Notes: generated from the letters alone by a model not told the origin. Counted from the first letter of the stretch, positions 37,586-64,000 are shown. The stretch: 64,000 bases of DNA from Candidatus Methanimicrococcus odontotermitis (GCA_031286065.1 JAITUZ010000059.1:1-64000), one strand, 5' to 3'. Translations and numbers: made by a program.

Positions 37586-38221
37586 ATGGTAAAATTTACA
37601 AAAAAACAGTTTGCTTTATTTTCGGTTGCTTTAATTGCCCTTATTGCAGGAACGGCCTCAATTTTAATATTTTGCGAAAAAGGATTATTCCCCTCTTTCA
37701 ACGGAGATGATGATATTTTACGGATTCATTTATCTTATGCTGTTGATGTTTCCAATCCGTATGAACTTGTCGGCGACGCTGATTACGTCTTTGCTGCCAA
37801 AGTCGATAAAATGGTCGGCAATACGTATAATAATCCGTTCGTGTATTCGCATACGAATTATATGATTACAGTTCTTGACAATATCAAGGGAGAACTCGTT
37901 GCCGATGAATCTATTCCGATTGAAAAGTCAGGCGGTCTCGGTAAAGACGGAAAAACGATAACGCTTCATTAAAACGATTCCCTTCCTGAAGTCGGAAAAG
38001 TTTATGTTTTCCTGGCTTATGCGCAGCCTGACGGGACGCTTCTCATCGCGGGGCCGAATTCAAACATTGAAATCGGTTCGGTTGACTCTTTTGAGGCGGA
38101 TTCGGTATTTTCAATCCGTGAATCGCCCGAGTATTTGAAAATGATCGACGCTTATGAAAATCAAATCGTTCGCGAGCGCGGCAGAATGGTTTCGATATAC
38201 GACGCAAACGCCGAAAATTAA
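37586..38221 (+). pseudogene. Cassette partner gene broken by one in-frame TAA
   Basis: A paralogue of the partner genes at 59190 and 60876. The frame runs intact from ATG 37586 to TAA 38221 (211 codon positions) except for one TAA at 37970-37972, where the copy at 60876 has the Glu of L-H-E-N-D-S-L-P. A single GAA to TAA change explains it. After it, N-D-S-L-P-E-V-G-K-V-Y-V-F-L-A-Y-A-Q-P-D continues in the same frame to a normal C-terminus (S-I-Y-D). Signal/membrane helix 8-31, core 55-165. TAA is not a pyrrolysine or selenocysteine codon. There is no protease gene beside it. The 128-residue N-terminal product could still be made. Confidence 0.88.
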
Positions 38222-46196: not shown

Positions 46197-46817
46197 GTGG
46201 TGACCGAATTGAAATCAAAAATATTAACTCGTTTGATTATGCTCTGTATTATACTTTGTATTATACTCGCATTAGCAGGTACAATGGCTGCATATAATTT
46301 GACTGACAGTTACGGCTCATATTATAAATGGAACAAAAATTACAGTAATCCTATTTATGTCGATTCCTCAAATTTAAACAGTTCTTGGAAATCTGCAACC
46401 GTAAATGCAATAAACATGTGGAATACAGGTTCGAATGATGCGAATATCAGTCTTGTTAATCAATCCGGAAGAATTGAGTGTATGATGTCTGCAGTACCTA
46501 TTACAGATAGGCATGCGTTAGCTTTTGTAAACTATTCCACCTATACGTATTATCCTTCAAATCAAACATTTGTGATTTCAGGTATAATTTTGCGTGTAAA
46601 CACTTCATACACAAATTGGTATACAGGCACAGGAACTTCATCGAATAATTACAGTTTACAGTCCGTTATTGCTCATGAGCTTGGTCACGTTCTCGGATTG
46701 CATCATGACGATTCTTACACAAACGGCTTAATGAGAACAACTATCGGAATGGGTGTTGCTCGAACAGTCGGAAGTGACGAGATTGCTGGTCTCCGAGCAA
46801 TTTATGGAAGGCGATAA
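46197..46817 (+). CDS. Secreted matrixin-like zinc metalloprotease (pair 1)
   Basis: 206 residues from GTG 46197. TTG 46209, with GGTGA 5 bases upstream, is an attractive alternative start. A signal peptide/helix covers 8-32. The zinc motif is H160-E161-L-G-H164-V-L-G-L-H-H170, the complete HExxHxxGxxH of metzincins, and M179 (N-G-L-M-R) is the Met-turn. A matrixin-like fold with a short propeptide-free N-terminus is inferred; there is no Cys-switch. The substrate is unknown. The protein acts outside the cell. Its partner gene starts one base after its stop. Confidence 0.88.
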   Translation: MVTELKSKILTRLIMLCIILCIILALAGTMAAYNLTDSYGSYYKWNKNYSNPIYVDSSNLNSSWKSATVNAINMWNTGSNDANISLVNQSGRIECMMSAVPITDRHALAFVNYSTYTYYPSNQTFVISGIILRVNTSYTNWYTGTGTSSNNYSLQSVIAHELGHVLGLHHDDSYTNGLMRTTIGMGVARTVGSDEIAGLRAIYGRR

Positions 46818-46818
46818 T

Positions 46819-47457
46819 ATGAGAAACATACTTTTTGCAGCAATCGGCATATTAATAATATGCAGTCTTGGATTTTTTACAGCAGATGATTTGAGTTCAG
46901 ATTCCAACTTTAATGGGAGTGAGATTTTTCCGATTCCTTCAGAAGAAGGTCTCTACCCTGAATATACATATAAAGAACTGACTGAGATTAGTGATCTGAT
47001 TGTAATGGGTCAATTTATTTCCTTTGAAGAAGCGAAATGGACGACTTCGGATGGGAAACAGCCGGATGGTGTAAAAATTACAAAAAACGTAGATTCAGAA
47101 GGTTATGAATATATTGATTTTATTTTAGATACGAGTGAATCAATATATACTGATTCAGTTTTTCAAATTAATGAATATTTTAAAGGCAAAGCAGATTCAG
47201 ATAAAATCGTCATTCGTTTTTATTCCGGAATAGTTGGGATGCTTCAAGCCGGTGATAATAAAGGATTGAATGCAGATGAATATACAGAGAATAAACCTGT
47301 CGTTTTTTATCTCACAAAATCTGAAAGTAAAACTGAAGATGGGATTAATTACTATGTTATTGTAACACCAAAGGGTGCATTGTCTGTTGAGGGTAATGCT
47401 CTTGTAAATCCCTATGGCGAAAAAATAACTTTTGAAGAAATAAAATCCTTAAATTAA
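46819..47457 (+). CDS. Exported partner protein of protease pair 1
   Basis: 212 residues. AAGGCG at the end of the protease gene serves ATG 46819, so the two are translationally coupled. A signal/membrane helix spans 5-22. The core (about 50-195) has the partner-family order: I-S-D-L-I-V-M-G strand, a long loop, Y-T-D-S-V-F-Q-I-N-E-Y-F-K-G, I-V-I-R-F-Y-S-G, P-V-V-F-Y-L and Y-Y-V-I-V-T-P-K-G-A-L. It is the most diverged of the five family members in the window. The order resembles NTR/TIMP domains, but cysteines are absent. Function is inferred only from the pairing. Confidence 0.75.
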   Translation: MRNILFAAIGILIICSLGFFTADDLSSDSNFNGSEIFPIPSEEGLYPEYTYKELTEISDLIVMGQFISFEEAKWTTSDGKQPDGVKITKNVDSEGYEYIDFILDTSESIYTDSVFQINEYFKGKADSDKIVIRFYSGIVGMLQAGDNKGLNADEYTENKPVVFYLTKSESKTEDGINYYVIVTPKGALSVEGNALVNPYGEKITFEEIKSLN

Positions 47458-59026: not shown

Positions 59027-59220
59027 AACAGAAAAGTCAAAAGACTTTTCTGCCAAAATCAAGCTTTTTCACTTTTTAGCTTCCAAATCATTATTCAAAG
59101 AGGAATTACTCTCTTCTATGAATTTGATTTGGCAACTCGAATCGTCAAAGTAAACAGTAAAGTTTTCAGGCTTTTGGTGATACTTTGATTCATTGTTTTG
59201 AAACATCGTAAATCGAAACA
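59027..59220. repeat. 194-base direct repeat, copy 1
   Basis: Matches 60713-60906 with a single difference (GAGGAATT here, GAGGGATT there). It covers the 3' end of the partner gene (last 10 codons), a conserved 45-codon frame and the terminator hairpin CAGAAAAGTC/GACTTTTCTG. The partner coding sequences beyond it differ widely, so the flank is far better preserved than the gene. Confidence 0.92.
59069..59206 (-). other. 45-codon frame in the repeat, copy 1
   Basis: An ATG overlaps the last codons of the partner gene in another frame (MFQNNE... read from 59206) and runs 45 codons to TGA just before the terminator. The product is acidic, and the copy at 60755-60892 differs by one Pro/Ser. It has no Shine-Dalgarno site of its own, but could be reached by coupled translation. 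It may equally be a chance frame kept only because the whole repeat is nearly identical. Confidence 0.25.
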
Positions 59221-59876
59221 GAATGTTCACGATCTCTTAAAATTTGATTTTCATAAGCTTTTTGAAAAGTCAAAATTTGAGAATCACTGCGGAGCCGGTC
59301 GTAATTCTTTTGAATCATTTCAGAATCGGTGTCTTTGTCCAATTCAATGACGGAATTGCGCCCGGAAACCACAAGGGAGCCGTCGTCCTGAGCGTAAGCG
59401 AGGAATATGTAAACGGTTCCTTCTTTCGGTAAAAAATCACCGGCAGGGATAGTATACGTTTTATTATCTTTGCTGATGCCGCCTTTCTTTTGAAGAGGAA
59501 TGGTCTGATTTAAAACAAGGTCGCCTTTTATATTCTGAATGACTGAAACCTGATACTCCGTAAATGGCGTTGTTGCTTCAATCTCTTTTCCGTCTTCGTC
59601 CAGAATCATCACAGGGAAGCGGTAGGCTGTTCCTGTTAACTTCTCAATTTCGGCGACAAAAACATAATCCGCGTCACCGACCAATTCGGCGGGGTTTTCA
59701 ACATCAATCACGTATGAATTTTGGAGATAATTGACCCGTATGCCGTCAATCATTGCACTTTGCGTCTCGCCGGATGAAGCGTTTTCAGGATTTACTATGC
59801 CGGGAAAAGCAATAACTGCCGCCGCGAATAAGCCGATTAATAAAATGGAGCCGAGAATATATTTGTTAAATTTCAT
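59190..59876 (-). CDS. Exported partner protein of protease pair 2
   Basis: 228 residues. The N-terminal helix 6-24 is a signal or anchor. The core (55-178) runs L-V-G-D-A-D-Y-V-F-V-A-E (66-76), G-T-A-Y-R-F-P, T-E-Y-Q-V-S-V-I-Q-N-I-K-G (106-118), I-P-L-Q-K-K-G-G-I, and G-T-V-Y-I-F-L-A-Y-A-Q-D-D-G (153-166). A helical C-terminus ends S-I-Y-D-V-S-K-Q. There are no cysteines. The strand order recalls NTR/TIMP domains (A-D-x-V then V-x-x-x-x-K-G then Y-L-x-A-G/Y-A), which suggests, but does not prove, that it binds the protease encoded 12 bases upstream. GAGGTGA precedes the ATG. Confidence 0.8.
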   Translation of the reverse strand: MKFNKYILGSILLIGLFAAAVIAFPGIVNPENASSGETQSAMIDGIRVNYLQNSYVIDVENPAELVGDADYVFVAEIEKLTGTAYRFPVMILDEDGKEIEATTPFTEYQVSVIQNIKGDLVLNQTIPLQKKGGISKDNKTYTIPAGDFLPKEGTVYIFLAYAQDDGSLVVSGRNSVIELDKDTDSEMIQKNYDRLRSDSQILTFQKAYENQILRDREHSVSIYDVSKQ

Positions 59877-59888
59877 ATTTTCACCTCA

Positions 59889-60389
59889 TTACCAATTCAA
59901 GACGGCCGCATTGTAAGAATCCTTATCATCCCGAGACAACGTGTATGTATCAGAGGATTTATAGTACATCGTGTTGCCTGTATTTGGATTTTCATTCAAA
60001 CCAAGAGCATGTCCAAGTTCATGTGCACACACATTTCTTCTTCTTGTCGTGTTCATGGGATCTATGTTGAAAGTATTGAATTTGATCGTTTTATTATCTC
60101 CATCTGTTTCACCGGCGTCATTATTTTTGAGGGTGATGTCTGAAATTGTGACATCTTTAAGATAGATGATGCTGTCTTTTCGAATGACACCTGATTTATA
60201 ATTATTCCAGGTGTTTACAGAATAATTAAAATCATTTTGGTATTTTGTACTGCCGCCCCAATCCAAATGCTTTCCCGAATCAACCAAGTCCCACCCCAAA
60301 GTATAGGCTGTTCCCAAGGCGGGGTTTATCATGGAAAACAATAAAGACAGCATAAAAAGAATTGCTATCGGCTTTATTAAATGTTTCAT
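59889..60389 (-). CDS. Secreted matrixin-like zinc metalloprotease (pair 2)
   Basis: 166 residues from ATG 60389 (AGAGGT 8 bases upstream; the frame extends further without a site). Signal peptide 1-27. A conserved block, V-D-S-G-K-H-L-D-W-G-G-S-T-K-Y with S-V-N-T-W-N, covers 36-62. The zinc motif is H123-E124-L-G-H127-A-L-G-L-N-E133: the third ligand position carries Glu instead of His. The Met-turn is M141 in G-N-T-M-Y-Y. Its closest relative is the protease at 61558, which has His at that position. It is predicted to be extracellular. Confidence 0.87.
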   Translation of the reverse strand: MKHLIKPIAILFMLSLLFSMINPALGTAYTLGWDLVDSGKHLDWGGSTKYQNDFNYSVNTWNNYKSGVIRKDSIIYLKDVTISDITLKNNDAGETDGDNKTIKFNTFNIDPMNTTRRRNVCAHELGHALGLNENPNTGNTMYYKSSDTYTLSRDDKDSYNAAVLNW

Positions 60390-60712
60390 TTTATTACCTC
60401 TAATTTTTAATTTGAATGCTTTTAAATACTTAAAAATCAAAGATAGAATTAAATTCAATAAGCAACTGCTGAGTTTATTCATATCTAAGTATTTGATTCG
60501 GCAGCTGTAAATTGTCAAATCAAATGGTGAGGCTTTTTTCAAAAGATTTCACATCGTCAGTTATAGTCGGTTATTATCTGTACATTTTTAAATATTTTGA
60601 AAAATAAAATTGTAAAAATAATTACGGCATAAGATGGGAATTAAAGATCTGATAAATTAAATTGAATAAATACAGATAAATCTGCCAAGAATTTAATCAA
60701 AAAAGAAGAAAA
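60390..60712 (-). promoter_or_regulatory. Shared upstream region of cassette 2
   Basis: 323 bases without a gene. The core promoter, read on the minus strand, is TTTTTAAGTATTTAAAAGC (complement of 60418-60436), about 30-45 bases before the ATG, so the leader is very short. Further upstream, GTATTTGATT near 60490 faces AATCAAATGG near 60525, a long imperfect hairpin. About 250 bases here are similar to 62085-62370, and the proximal ~65 bases also match 63935-64000. Confidence 0.6.
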
Positions 60713-60906
60713 AACAGAAAAGTCAAAAGACTTTTCTGCCAAAATCAAGCTTTTTCACTTTTTAGCTTCCAAATCATTATTCAAAGAGGGATTACTCTCT
60801 TCTATGAATTTGATTTGGCAACTCGAATCGTCAAAGTAAACAGTAAAGTTTTCAGGCTTTTGGTGATACTTTGATTCATTGTTTTGAAACATCGTAAATC
60901 GAAACA
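60713..60906. repeat. 194-base direct repeat, copy 2
   Basis: Second copy of the sequence at 59027-59220, in the same orientation and the same position relative to its partner gene. It contains the terminator (CAGAAAAGTC/GACTTTTCTG around 60716-60740) and the 45-codon frame at 60755-60892. Confidence 0.92.
60755..60892 (-). other. 45-codon frame in the repeat, copy 2
   Basis: Same short frame as at 59069-59206 with one residue changed (Pro for Ser). It starts at an ATG inside the last codons of the partner gene and ends before the terminator. Confidence 0.25.
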
Positions 60907-61544
60907 AAACGTTCGCGATCACTGACTTTTTGAGTTTCAAAAACTTTAACCGCTTCAGAGTATTCAAACGAATCTTTCACTGAGCCTGTTGAATTTTTCT
61001 TCAAGAGATCAATGGATGTTATCTCAATGTTTGAATTCGGTCCTGAGATTTGAAGTGTTCCGTCGGGCTGCGCGTAAGCAAGGAAAATATAAACTTTTCC
61101 GACTTCCGGCAGTGAATCGTTTTCATGCAATACCAACTTTCCGTTGTACTGGCTGATGCCGCCTGCTTTTTCAATCGGTATGGATTCCCCCGTTATGAGT
61201 TTTCCCTTAATATTTTCGAGAACGGTTACATAATAATTTGTGTGAGGACTTCCAACTTCAACTTCATTTCCTTTTTCATCTTCAATTAAGACCGGAAATT
61301 TGTATGTATTCCCTGCAAATTTATCAACTTTTGCAGCAAAAACGTAATCAACATCGCCGACAAGTTCAGACGGATCGTATACATCGATAATATAAGATGC
61401 CCGGATTCGTGAAATATTTCCATCTCCGCTGAATGAGGGTGATTCATTGCTGTAAAACACTGAAGTTGCGGCTACCCCTGCAATAAGGGCAACTAAAACA
61501 GCAGAAAACAAAGCAAAATGTTTTCTTGTAAATTGATTCTTCAT
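60876..61544 (-). CDS. Exported partner protein of protease pair 3
   Basis: 222 residues from ATG 61544, preceded by GGGGG; the open frame extends upstream into the protease gene without a site. Membrane/signal helix 8-30. The core 58-175 contains L-V-G-D-V-D-Y-V-F-A-A-K, G-N-T-Y-K-F-P, T-N-Y-Y-V-T-V-L-E-N-I-K-G, E-K-A-G-G-I, L-P-E-V-G-K-V-Y-I-F-L-A-Y-A-Q and G-P-N-S-N-I-E-I. It ends S-I-Y-D-V-S-K-Q. It is the closest relative of the broken gene at 37586, sharing K-H/Q-F-A-L-F-S near the start and L-H-x-N-D-S-L-P in the core. It follows its protease by 13 bases. Confidence 0.82.
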   Translation of the reverse strand: MKNQFTRKHFALFSAVLVALIAGVAATSVFYSNESPSFSGDGNISRIRASYIIDVYDPSELVGDVDYVFAAKVDKFAGNTYKFPVLIEDEKGNEVEVGSPHTNYYVTVLENIKGKLITGESIPIEKAGGISQYNGKLVLHENDSLPEVGKVYIFLAYAQPDGTLQISGPNSNIEITSIDLLKKNSTGSVKDSFEYSEAVKVFETQKVSDRERFVSIYDVSKQ

Positions 61545-61557
61545 ATTATTTGCCCCC

Positions 61558-62070
61558 TTAATATCTATTGTAAGATGTGTCGTATGAAGCTTTATCATTT
61601 GCTGATAATGAATAAACACTTGAAGATATGTAATACATAACATCGCCCACTTGATTGTGGTCAAGTCCTAATGCATGCCCCAGTTCATGTGTGTAAAGAT
61701 TACGGCGTTGATTTTGGTTCATTGTATCCATTTTATTCAAATTGAACTTGATTGTTTTATCATTTCCATTTGTTTCGCCAGCTGTTCCATTTATCCATCT
61801 TTCATCTGAAATTGTAGCATCTTTAACATATAAGATGCTGTCTTTTCTGATAACGCCGGATTTATAGGCATTCCATGTTGAAACAGAAGAATTGAAATCG
61901 CTTTGATACTTTGTGCTGCCGGCCCAATCCAAATGTTTTCCGGAATCCACCATATGCCACCACTGAACACTGGATATTGCGCCCAGTGCCGGAATTACAA
62001 GGGTCATTAATAGCAAACACACCAATAAAACGGCAACTATTCGGTTGAAATTTTTAGATTTCTTTTTCAT
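61558..62070 (-). CDS. Secreted matrixin-like zinc metalloprotease (pair 3)
   Basis: 170 residues, signal peptide about 1-30, AGGAGATAA before the ATG. V-D-S-G-K-H-L-D-W-A-G-S-T-K-Y (41-55) and S-V-S-T-W-N match pair 2. The zinc site is complete: H128-E129-L-G-H132-A-L-G-L-D-H138, with Met-turn M145 in G-D-V-M-Y-Y. It is the most canonical protease of the right-hand array. The catalytic domain is short, about 140 residues, close to the lower limit of matrixins. Confidence 0.9.
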   Translation of the reverse strand: MKKKSKNFNRIVAVLLVCLLLMTLVIPALGAISSVQWWHMVDSGKHLDWAGSTKYQSDFNSSVSTWNAYKSGVIRKDSILYVKDATISDERWINGTAGETNGNDKTIKFNLNKMDTMNQNQRRNLYTHELGHALGLDHNQVGDVMYYISSSVYSLSANDKASYDTSYNRY

Positions 62071-62657
62071 TTTGTTATCTCCTATTCTTGATTTGCATAG
62101 TTATAAATACTTAAAATCAAAGATAGGAGTGAATTCAATAAGCAATTGCTGAGTTCACTCACATCTAAGCATTTGATTTGGCAACTGTAAATTGTCAAAT
62201 CAAATGGTGAGTCCTATTTTCTTCAAATATTTTTCACATCGTCAACTATAGCTGGCGATTATTTATACGTTTTTAAATATTTTGAAAAATAAAATTATAA
62301 AAATAATTAAAATATAAGATGGGAATTAAAGGTCTGATAAATTAAATTGAATAAATACAGATAGGACCAAGATAAGAACAGATGTTAATAATAAACTTTT
62401 AATTCACTGCTTGTATCTGAAATTCATCTTAATATTTCGTTTAAACATTTTTAAAGTTGAATTTATTAAATATATTGGATCGAATTAAATTCAATATAAA
62501 TTAGGGGGGATTAAGCTTACTGGGATTGTTGTAACGGAAGGTGTTAAAACCCCCTCTGTTTTATCTCATCCATTGTATAACTTAGATTGAATGAAAAGAC
62601 AAAACATAAAAATAAATGAAAACAGAAGAATAATTCTTCTGTATGCCATCAAATGAC
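62071..62657 (-). promoter_or_regulatory. Shared upstream region of cassette 3 and spacer
   Basis: 587 bases without a gene. Bases 62085-62370 repeat the upstream region of cassette 2, with the same TATA-like core (complement of 62099-62116). CATTTGATTTGGCAA (62169-62183) and TTGTCAAATCAAATG (62191-62205) form an almost perfect 15-bp hairpin. Bases 62371-62600 are unique and AT-rich, with AGGGGGG near 62505 facing CCCCCT near 62551. ACAGAAGA/TCTTCTGT (62622-62642), followed on the minus strand by T-rich sequence, is the terminator of the gene at 62658. Confidence 0.55.
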
Positions 62658-63437
62658 TTAAATCTCCTCGTTTGCAATGCATCGGATCCGGTCAAAATTT
62701 TTAATCTCCGATGTGAGTTTCTTGTAGTATCTGACTTCATCGAAAGCTTCGATGCCTTTTTCATCAAAATCTTCCAAAAGAATCCGGTCTTCTTGAGTGA
62801 AAATTGTACCTCGTCCATCCAATTGGGAAACTGTTATGAAAAGATAAACTTCGCCAACTTCAATCAAAGAATCACCGTATTCCATGAATCCGTAGTATCC
62901 TTGATCATACTTTTCATAATCTTCCAAACGAGTGTCGCTTTCGCGAATAAATTCTTTCGTAACATAATCAGCTGTGTAATAGCCGCCGATTTGCTTTAAT
63001 TCAATTTCCCTTTTCAGAGCCGGTCCTTTTATCAATTCAATGATTTCGACATCAAAAAGATTGTACGGATTTCGTAGTTCATTTGGCTGAGCTTGATAGT
63101 TCCCTTTGTGTTCGACAACTCTGCCGATGAAAATATGGTCGGAATAAGCAACATTGAACTCATCAGAAGTTTTGCTGTATTTTTCCATGTCCAATTCATA
63201 GGCATCTAGCATTTTGGATGTTCCTTCTCTTAATCGGAGATAATCGTCCTTCGTAACATTTTGATGATAGGTCTCAGCCATGCTTTTTTTAAACATTTGG
63301 AAATCATATTCAGCCTGCTCTGCTTCAGACATCTCTGAATATGGGACAAAATCCCCGATTGTTGCAAAAGATAAAGCCAAAAGGGAAAGGATTGCAAGCG
63401 AAAAAACTAATATCAGCTTGCCTTTTTTTGAAATCAT
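62658..63437 (-). CDS. Exported partner protein of protease pair 4
   Basis: 259 residues, the longest partner. Signal/anchor helix 7-27 and a charged helical insert (about 35-95: E-M-S-E-A-E-Q-A-E-Y and following) precede the core. The core has A-Y-S-D-H-I-F-I-G-R-V near 97, P-Y-N-L-F-D-V-E-I-I-E-L-I-K-G near 124-138, I-E-L-K-Q-I-G-G-Y, and I-E-V-G-E-V-Y-L-F-I-T-V near 190-202. The order is the same as in the other partners, though sequence identity is low. GGGGG 9 bases before the ATG lies in the end of the protease gene; the genes are 5 bases apart. Confidence 0.78.
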   Translation of the reverse strand: MISKKGKLILVFSLAILSLLALSFATIGDFVPYSEMSEAEQAEYDFQMFKKSMAETYHQNVTKDDYLRLREGTSKMLDAYELDMEKYSKTSDEFNVAYSDHIFIGRVVEHKGNYQAQPNELRNPYNLFDVEIIELIKGPALKREIELKQIGGYYTADYVTKEFIRESDTRLEDYEKYDQGYYGFMEYGDSLIEVGEVYLFITVSQLDGRGTIFTQEDRILLEDFDEKGIEAFDEVRYYKKLTSEIKNFDRIRCIANEEI

Positions 63438-63442
63438 TTATT

Positions 63443-63922
63443 TTACCCCCACAAACAATTATACACTTCTTTGTCTTTCGTTCCCAAATAAGTTTGACTG
63501 GATTTCCCTTGTTTCATAACGTTTCCTGAAATACCGATCTCATTAATCCCTAAAGCATGTCCAAGCTCATGGGTCAATGTTTTTTGTTTTTCAGCGGGAG
63601 TGAATGGAGTGTTGTTTCCACTCGTGGTACTATTCATGTATCCTGCATGGATATGCTTTGCATTCGGAGAATAAACATCAACGATATAGAGATCTTCAAG
63701 GGTAAGAAGTGTATCCTTGCTAATGTTTACTTTTTTCATAGCGTTCCATGTTGAGATTGAAGCATTCCATTCACTGGAATATTTGGTTGAACCAGTCCAT
63801 TGGATGCCTTTTCCCCAATCGACAGCATCATCTCCCGCCGGCAGATGATAACTGCAAGCAGATGCGAGTGGACTAATCAAAAAGATGCATAACACACCTA
63901 ATATTATTAGTTTAAATTGCAT
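63443..63922 (-). CDS. Secreted matrixin-like zinc metalloprotease (pair 4)
   Basis: 159 residues from ATG 63922 (AGGAGATAA upstream; the open frame extends further without a site). Signal peptide 1-21 with a Cys at 23 directly after (S-A-C), so lipid attachment is possible. I-Q-W-T-G-S-T-K-Y and S-I-S-T-W-N match the other copies. The zinc motif is H118-E119-L-G-H122-A-L-G-I-N-E128, again with Glu at the third-ligand position as in pair 2. The Met-turn is M136 in G-N-V-M-K. It is the most diverged of the right-hand proteases. Confidence 0.85.
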   Translation of the reverse strand: MQFKLIILGVLCIFLISPLASACSYHLPAGDDAVDWGKGIQWTGSTKYSSEWNASISTWNAMKKVNISKDTLLTLEDLYIVDVYSPNAKHIHAGYMNSTTSGNNTPFTPAEKQKTLTHELGHALGINEIGISGNVMKQGKSSQTYLGTKDKEVYNCLWG

Positions 63923-63934
63923 TTTGTTATCTCC

Positions 63935-64000
63935 TATTTTTAATTTGAATACTTTTAAATACTTAAAAATCAAAGATAGGAGTGAATTCAATAGATAACT
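63935..64000 (-). promoter_or_regulatory. Shared promoter of cassette 4, cut by the window end
   Basis: The 66 bases visible match the upstream regions of cassettes 2 and 3, including the TATA-like TTTTTAAGTATTTAAAAG (complement of 63952-63969). The repeat continues beyond the window, so more of the array may lie to the right. Confidence 0.6.

Follow-up and report, generated by a model that had tools for sequence, protein, structure and literature searches.

A tandem array of protease and partner genes

The window that we analysed, a 64,000-nt stretch within a 118,836-base contig of an archaeal genome (1.75 Mb; family Methanosarcinaceae, to which Methanosarcina and Methanolobus also belong), carries three consecutive two-gene cassettes on the minus strand (59190–63922). 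In each, a protease gene is followed, after a gap of 12, 13 or 5 nt (cassettes 1 to 3, respectively), by the gene for a second protein that we term the partner; an older protease–partner pair, in which the gap is a single nucleotide, occupies 46197–47457 on the plus strand. This is the arrangement given in a preliminary description of the same DNA (three tandem cassettes with gaps of 5–13 bases, plus a fourth, older pair), the coordinates and gaps of which were borne out. The individual features are as follows:

37586–38209, plus strand: partner-only pseudogene with one in-frame TAA and no protease upstream
46197–46817, plus strand: protease of the older pair, a matrixin with the motif HELGHVLGLHH
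46819–47457, plus strand: partner of the older pair, of the widespread ‘WNTxDGKxP’ type (partner HMM E~1e-47)
59027–59054, minus strand: terminator-like hairpin after partner 1
59190–59876, minus strand: cassette 1 partner, with a hydrophobic N-terminal segment, a predicted NTR-fold domain and no Cys (partner HMM E~1e-58)
59889–60389, minus strand: cassette 1 protease, a prodomain-less matrixin with an N-terminal signal sequence and the motif HELGHALGLNE (third ligand Glu)
60384–60544, minus strand: leader repeat upstream of cassette 1 (repeat families D1/D2)
60713–60740, minus strand: terminator-like hairpin after partner 2
60876–61544, minus strand: cassette 2 partner, structure predicted (see below)
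61558–62070, minus strand: cassette 2 protease, a matrixin with the motif HELGHALGLDH (the canonical three His)
62064–62245, minus strand: leader repeat upstream of cassette 2 (D1/D2)
62622–62642, minus strand: terminator-like hairpin after partner 3
62658–63437, minus strand: cassette 3 partner, with a longer N-terminal region (partner HMM E~1e-54)
63443–63922, minus strand: cassette 3 protease with the motif HELGHALGINE, assigned by alignment with the other window proteases
63917–64000, minus strand: leader repeat upstream of cassette 3 (D1/D2), which runs beyond the window to contig position 64098

The three cassettes are all present, but the array is larger than the preliminary description had it: besides the pseudogene listed above, the same contig carries beyond the window an intact partner gene (66300–66977) that is preceded by only a C-terminal remnant of a protease, and, further on, a full protease–partner pair (67196–68481). 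Three additional pairs lie on other contigs of this genome (L039, L040 and L041). Each cassette looks like a transcription unit of its own, because the leaders are repeated upstream and every partner gene has a terminator-like hairpin after it. The leader repeats upstream of the protease genes comprise four copies with 72–77% identity to the reference copy, and a 248-nt 3′ block (D5), 94% identical, is common to cassettes 1 and 2; it looks as though tandem duplication has spread the cassettes, each as one transcription unit. Their G+C content is 0.358, versus 0.441 for the window.

The proteases are matrixins without a prodomain

The window proteases are matrixins (Peptidase M10, PF00413) that lack a prodomain. 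Three of the four pass the PF00413 cut-off of 24 bits, namely those of cassette 1 (E=1.8e-5, 25.1 bits), cassette 2 (E=3.1e-6, 27.6 bits) and the older pair (E=1.3e-8, 35.3 bits); the protease of cassette 3 falls below it, at 12.6 bits, but still aligns with the others. The best match of the protease family profile in the PDB is human MMP-8 (E=6e-15). These proteins had at first been read as metzincins with an HExxHxxG motif and a Met-turn. In an alignment of 19 proteases the HExxH motif and the downstream Met are indeed invariant, and the matrixin profile agrees with that reading, but the third zinc ligand calls for a correction: within the window, only the proteases of cassette 2 and the older pair have His there, whereas those of cassettes 1 and 3 have Glu. 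Across the archaeal proteases this position is occupied by His in 26 cases, Asp in 10 and Glu in four.

Animal MMPs are kept latent by a prodomain, and an MMP catalytic domain on its own takes up about 118 residues to the HExxH motif. The cysteine-switch prodomain of animal MMPs is absent from the paired proteases, and there is no room for one, because HExxH is reached only 118–173 residues into the protein, counted from the start codon and thus with the signal sequence (in the cassette 1 protease, at residue 123). The mature proteases comprise little beyond a catalytic domain. A cysteine-switch prodomain is not required of every M10 member.

The partner is predicted to adopt an NTR fold

Partners from both archaea and bacteria matched no family in Pfam or NCBIfam, PF00965 (TIMP) included, and a sequence search of the PDB with partner profiles returned no convincing relative. 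There is no sign of a phage gene, since scans of viral contigs turned up no relative. When the partner profile was aligned with N-TIMP by hhalign, the result was not significant (E=0.08); the TIMP profile is shallow, and the whole domain was aligned in register.

The first structural model, that of the cassette 2 partner, has a mean pLDDT of 57 (65–86 in the core); when it was compared by Foldseek with 350,542 PDB chains, ranks 1–18 were occupied exclusively by NTR domains, TIMPs among them. Bearing in mind the weakness of this model, we chose a better-sampled relative, a Methanosarcina spelaei partner that also adjoins a matrixin, for which AlphaFold2 gave a pLDDT of 90.2 and a pTM of 0.85. 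Among the same 350,542 chains, ranks 1–11 for this second model were the agrin NtA domain, TIMP-2, the PCOLCE and meteorin NTR domains, and TIMP-1 (probability 0.92–1.00; TM-score (target) 0.41–0.60; E-values from 5e-4). Because the top matches of the two models are all NTR domains, structure prediction supports an NTR (OB) fold for the partner, the fold class of TIMPs, in line with the NTR/TIMP order of core strands that had been proposed from sequence. The absence of the N-terminal Cys of TIMPs, also pointed out in the preliminary description, was confirmed by Cys counts: the TIMP Cys1-x-Cys3 element and the disulfides are missing, the partners of cassettes 1 and 2 are Cys-free, and so are 98 of 147 family cores. 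The partners may share descent with TIMPs, or derive from them.

The fold alone does not imply inhibition, because the best Foldseek matches are to the laminin-binding agrin NtA domain and not to a TIMP. The NTR domains of agrin, PCOLCE, meteorin and complement C345C, which are the best structural matches of the partner’s predicted fold, belong to animal proteins that are generally not protease inhibitors, and no sequence relation between them and the partner was found. The partner could then be a non-inhibitory subunit, its NTR domain acting as a protein-binding module that tethers the protease, targets it or recruits its substrate: the protease would be kept at the cell surface, or presented to a matrix substrate, in the manner in which agrin NtA and complement C345C bind proteins. 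The membrane segments or archaeosortase-like tails that partners bear are consistent with such a role, as is the occurrence of stand-alone and multi-domain partner proteins, and fusions on either side of the protease, described below, would also suit a targeting module. We consider this the main rival to the reading that we favour (a restraining role, see below), because the best structural match is a laminin-binding domain and stand-alone partners are common; nonetheless, we judge it unlikely, at a little over one chance in four.

Protease and partner are coupled across archaea and bacteria

The survey covered 186 genomes of Methanosarcinales, 394 of the phylum, 40 of the Brevibacillus order and 247 of Acidobacteriota, together with a named-genome scan, and yielded 152 non-redundant partner domains. 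A matrixin is adjacent or fused to 81 of them (45 with the protease upstream, 19 with the protease downstream and 17 fused), so that pairing is far beyond chance; coupled pairs occur in Methanosarcinales, Methanoperedens, Hydrothermarchaeota, Brevibacillales, Acidobacteriota and Rokubacteria. The gene order is protease then partner in archaea and Brevibacillales. In Acidobacteriota the order is reversed: the partner gene comes first, often with a 4-base overlap of the kind that is typical of translationally coupled genes, or else the partner is fused to the protease as its N-terminal domain. In the fusions of Acidobacteriota and Rokubacteria the partner domain is N-terminal to the protease, that is, where a prodomain would sit; C-terminal partner fusions were found in the window’s own genus (L031, L098 and L213) and in Brevibacillales (L169). 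The fixed coupling noticed in the window is therefore upheld by the survey, fusions in both orders included, and the pair is conserved in archaea and in several bacterial phyla. Partners without a protease neighbour, which the preliminary description had seen as an argument against a joint function, are also widespread, at 68 of the 152, yet coupled ones number 81; the stand-alone cases suggest that the partner domain has other uses or persists by itself.

The coupling is specific to this type of protease, because a second Methanosarcinales matrixin, of about 240 aa and with a C-terminal TM segment, has a partner beside it at none of seven loci. We noted, furthermore, that the distances among proteases and among partners are matched (Mantel r=0.90); this correlation was set aside as evidence of contact, since co-inheritance alone predicts it. 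The same correlation would be expected if the two genes were linked by descent only, as a duplicating and laterally moving cassette whose partner has an unrelated surface role, and the tandem copies with duplicated flanks and the low G+C of the cassettes fit that idea as well. However, this idea does not sit well with gene orders and fusions that are independent of one another in phyla far apart, nor with the lack of partners beside the other matrixin family, and we hold it to be very improbable.

Another key observation to emerge from the survey is that the dependence between the two genes runs one way: the protease depends on the partner more than the partner depends on the protease. A partner accompanies 32 of the 33 archaeal proteases that belong to the paired type and are intact; a broken protease lies beside a retained partner at 11 loci, and a partner is present without a protease at 61. 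No locus combined an intact protease with a broken partner in this comparison of broken and intact genes, for which searches seeded with partners were pooled with searches seeded with proteases. A tethering or recruiting function leaves unexplained why intact proteases nearly always have a partner while partners outlive the protease, and it offers no account of latency in the absence of a prodomain. The dependence of intact proteases on the partner, like the co-transcription and tight spacing, would suit a folding chaperone or an activator that serves export or maturation of the protease; on the other hand, a dedicated chaperone would not be expected to outlast the breakage or loss of its protease, and no NTR fold is known to act as a protease chaperone. 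For these reasons we give the chaperone or activator reading a low probability.

A proposed restraining role for the partner

An exported matrixin without a prodomain would need another form of control, and the co-made NTR-fold protein is the obvious candidate. We hypothesize that the two genes of a cassette form one unit, which encodes a small, exported, prodomain-less matrixin and a co-translated protein of NTR fold. The N-terminal hydrophobic segment of the partner (in relatives, also other tails) would anchor it at the producer’s own surface, where it would bind its cognate protease and restrain it, thereby shielding the producer up to the moment of the protease’s release or use. Such a role would be TIMP-like or potempin-like, exerted by a TIMP-fold domain that does without the cysteine wedge of TIMPs. 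The one-way dependence described above fits an inhibitor or an antidote, and we counted the N-terminal fusions at the position of a prodomain in favour of restraint. We assign a probability of about one half to this reading, in which the partner is a surface-held binder and restrainer of its cognate matrixin, with binding, inhibition, surface location and self-protection all putative.

Several observations point the other way. The zinc wedge that TIMPs form with Cys1 and Cys3 is missing, as are their disulfides, and the fusions at four loci place the partner domain C-terminal to the protease. Moreover, nearly half of the partner domains stand alone, and at the sequence level there is no significant homology to TIMP.

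A broader proposal, to which we give slightly less than an even chance, is that the module represents a widespread microbial counterpart of the MMP–TIMP pair: a prodomain-less matrixin accompanied by a dedicated NTR-fold inhibitor, encoded beside it or fused to it, that would block the active site without cysteines, and that possibly shares ancestry with the animal pair.

Comparison with known systems

The closest functional precedent, by analogy, is the potempin–karilysin system. In Tannerella forsythia, potempins are small lipoproteins the genes of which directly precede those of the KLIKK proteases, including the matrixin karilysin, and they are reported to inhibit the co-expressed protease (PMC7296668, PMC4404884). 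As in that system, the gene for a secreted matrixin lies directly beside that for a small protein; inhibition is reported for the potempin and putative here. Potempins come from one Bacteroidota pathogen, have no sequence similarity to one another and are encoded upstream of the protease; by contrast, the present partners form one family of predicted NTR fold, usually without a lipobox (few of them were flagged with a lipobox-like motif), that spans several phyla and is encoded downstream of the protease in archaea and Brevibacillales. Potempin A is an OB-fold barrel. Karilysin has a short propeptide, for which the present proteases leave no room.

With TIMPs (PF00965), the partner has in common the NTR/OB fold (here predicted), a matrixin as the associated protease and the same order of core strands. 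Unlike a TIMP, it has neither Cys1-x-Cys3, nor the disulfides, nor a C-terminal TIMP domain; its N-terminus is putatively membrane-tethered, it is co-encoded with its protease and it lacks significant sequence homology to TIMPs.

Matrix metalloproteases of Methanosarcinaceae, acquired by gene transfer, are already known (PMC12587646); the proteins in that study are also PF00413 matrixins from the same archaeal family. In its text the words operon, fusion, adjacent and TIMP never occur, and inhibitor occurs four times.

Novelty and implications

In a literature search conducted mostly outside subscription journals, neither the partner family nor its fold nor the module turned up in an earlier report, and we found no description of prokaryotic TIMP/NTR partners. 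Within the literature searched, the partner family and the module are therefore novel, whereas Methanosarcinaceae matrixins and co-encoded protease control proteins are known. The preliminary description had ventured that an archaeal protease with a co-encoded inhibitor-like partner would be new: no earlier instance of this module came to light, but the potempin–karilysin operons are a bacterial precedent for the principle.

TIMPs and matrix metalloproteases are textbook partners in animals, and the same two folds, one of them predicted, recur as a pair in microbes. Such recurrent pairing, whether the genes form operons in either order or are fused, would imply either repeated origin or an age that predates animals, and would make the family a source of small, cysteine-free scaffolds that bind matrixins. 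An unannotated protein family also becomes a testable protease partner.

The results are also relevant to the recent study in which methanogens are dated by means of matrixins (PMC12587646), because there is a second, partner-linked matrixin family in the same archaea, in Methanoperedens and in Hydrothermarchaeota. The partnerless, TM-anchored matrixin of about 240 aa is possibly the one that was dated in that study.

Zinc ligands and base composition

The third zinc ligand of the paired proteases in archaea varies between His (26 proteins), Asp (10) and Glu (4); examples of this variation are found at 59889-60389 and 63443-63922 of the window, and at loci L046 and L043. The cassettes are also clearly lower in G+C than the window: 0.358 for cassettes 1-3 (59190-63922) and 0.347 for the older pair (46197-47457), versus 0.441.

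The array past the window end

Past the window end, there is a fourth copy of the leader repeat, the repeated DNA that lies upstream of the protease genes of cassettes 1-3. The gene downstream of this copy encodes a small predicted membrane protein, not a protease. Between cassettes 3 and 4, the array is broken by a gene on the opposite strand, which we name as aldolase-like from its sequence only.

L008:7868-7985, fourth leader repeat
L008:7456-7761, - strand, predicted membrane protein (101 aa)
L008:6423-7241, + strand, aldolase-like gene (DhnA/FBA type)

Partner variants and matrixin distribution

In Methanosarcina, stand-alone partners (L054, L058, L060, L109, L112, L115 and others) have a C-terminal tail that is archaeosortase-like, PFxSSFW...RRR, which suggests that these proteins are anchored at the surface. 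In a related genus, a single protein (L011:1420-2625) fuses a cassette-type partner domain with one of the 'WNTxDGK' type, and so connects these two subgroups. A partner with 56% identity to the Methanosarcina type lies on a contig titled Bacteroidales bacterium UBA1797 (L117); this contig is probably mis-binned.

Partner-linked matrixins also occur beyond Methanosarcinaceae, in Hydrothermarchaeota and Methanoperedens genomes (L134, L135, L137, L138), and they bear on the use of matrixins as an age constraint on Methanosarcinaceae. Most Methanosarcinales genomes contain a second matrixin family, of ~240 aa and with a C-terminal transmembrane segment; no NTR partner was found near its genes at L203-L209 (seven Methanosarcinales genomes). 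PMC12587646 dates a vertically inherited MMP, and this second family may be the one in question.
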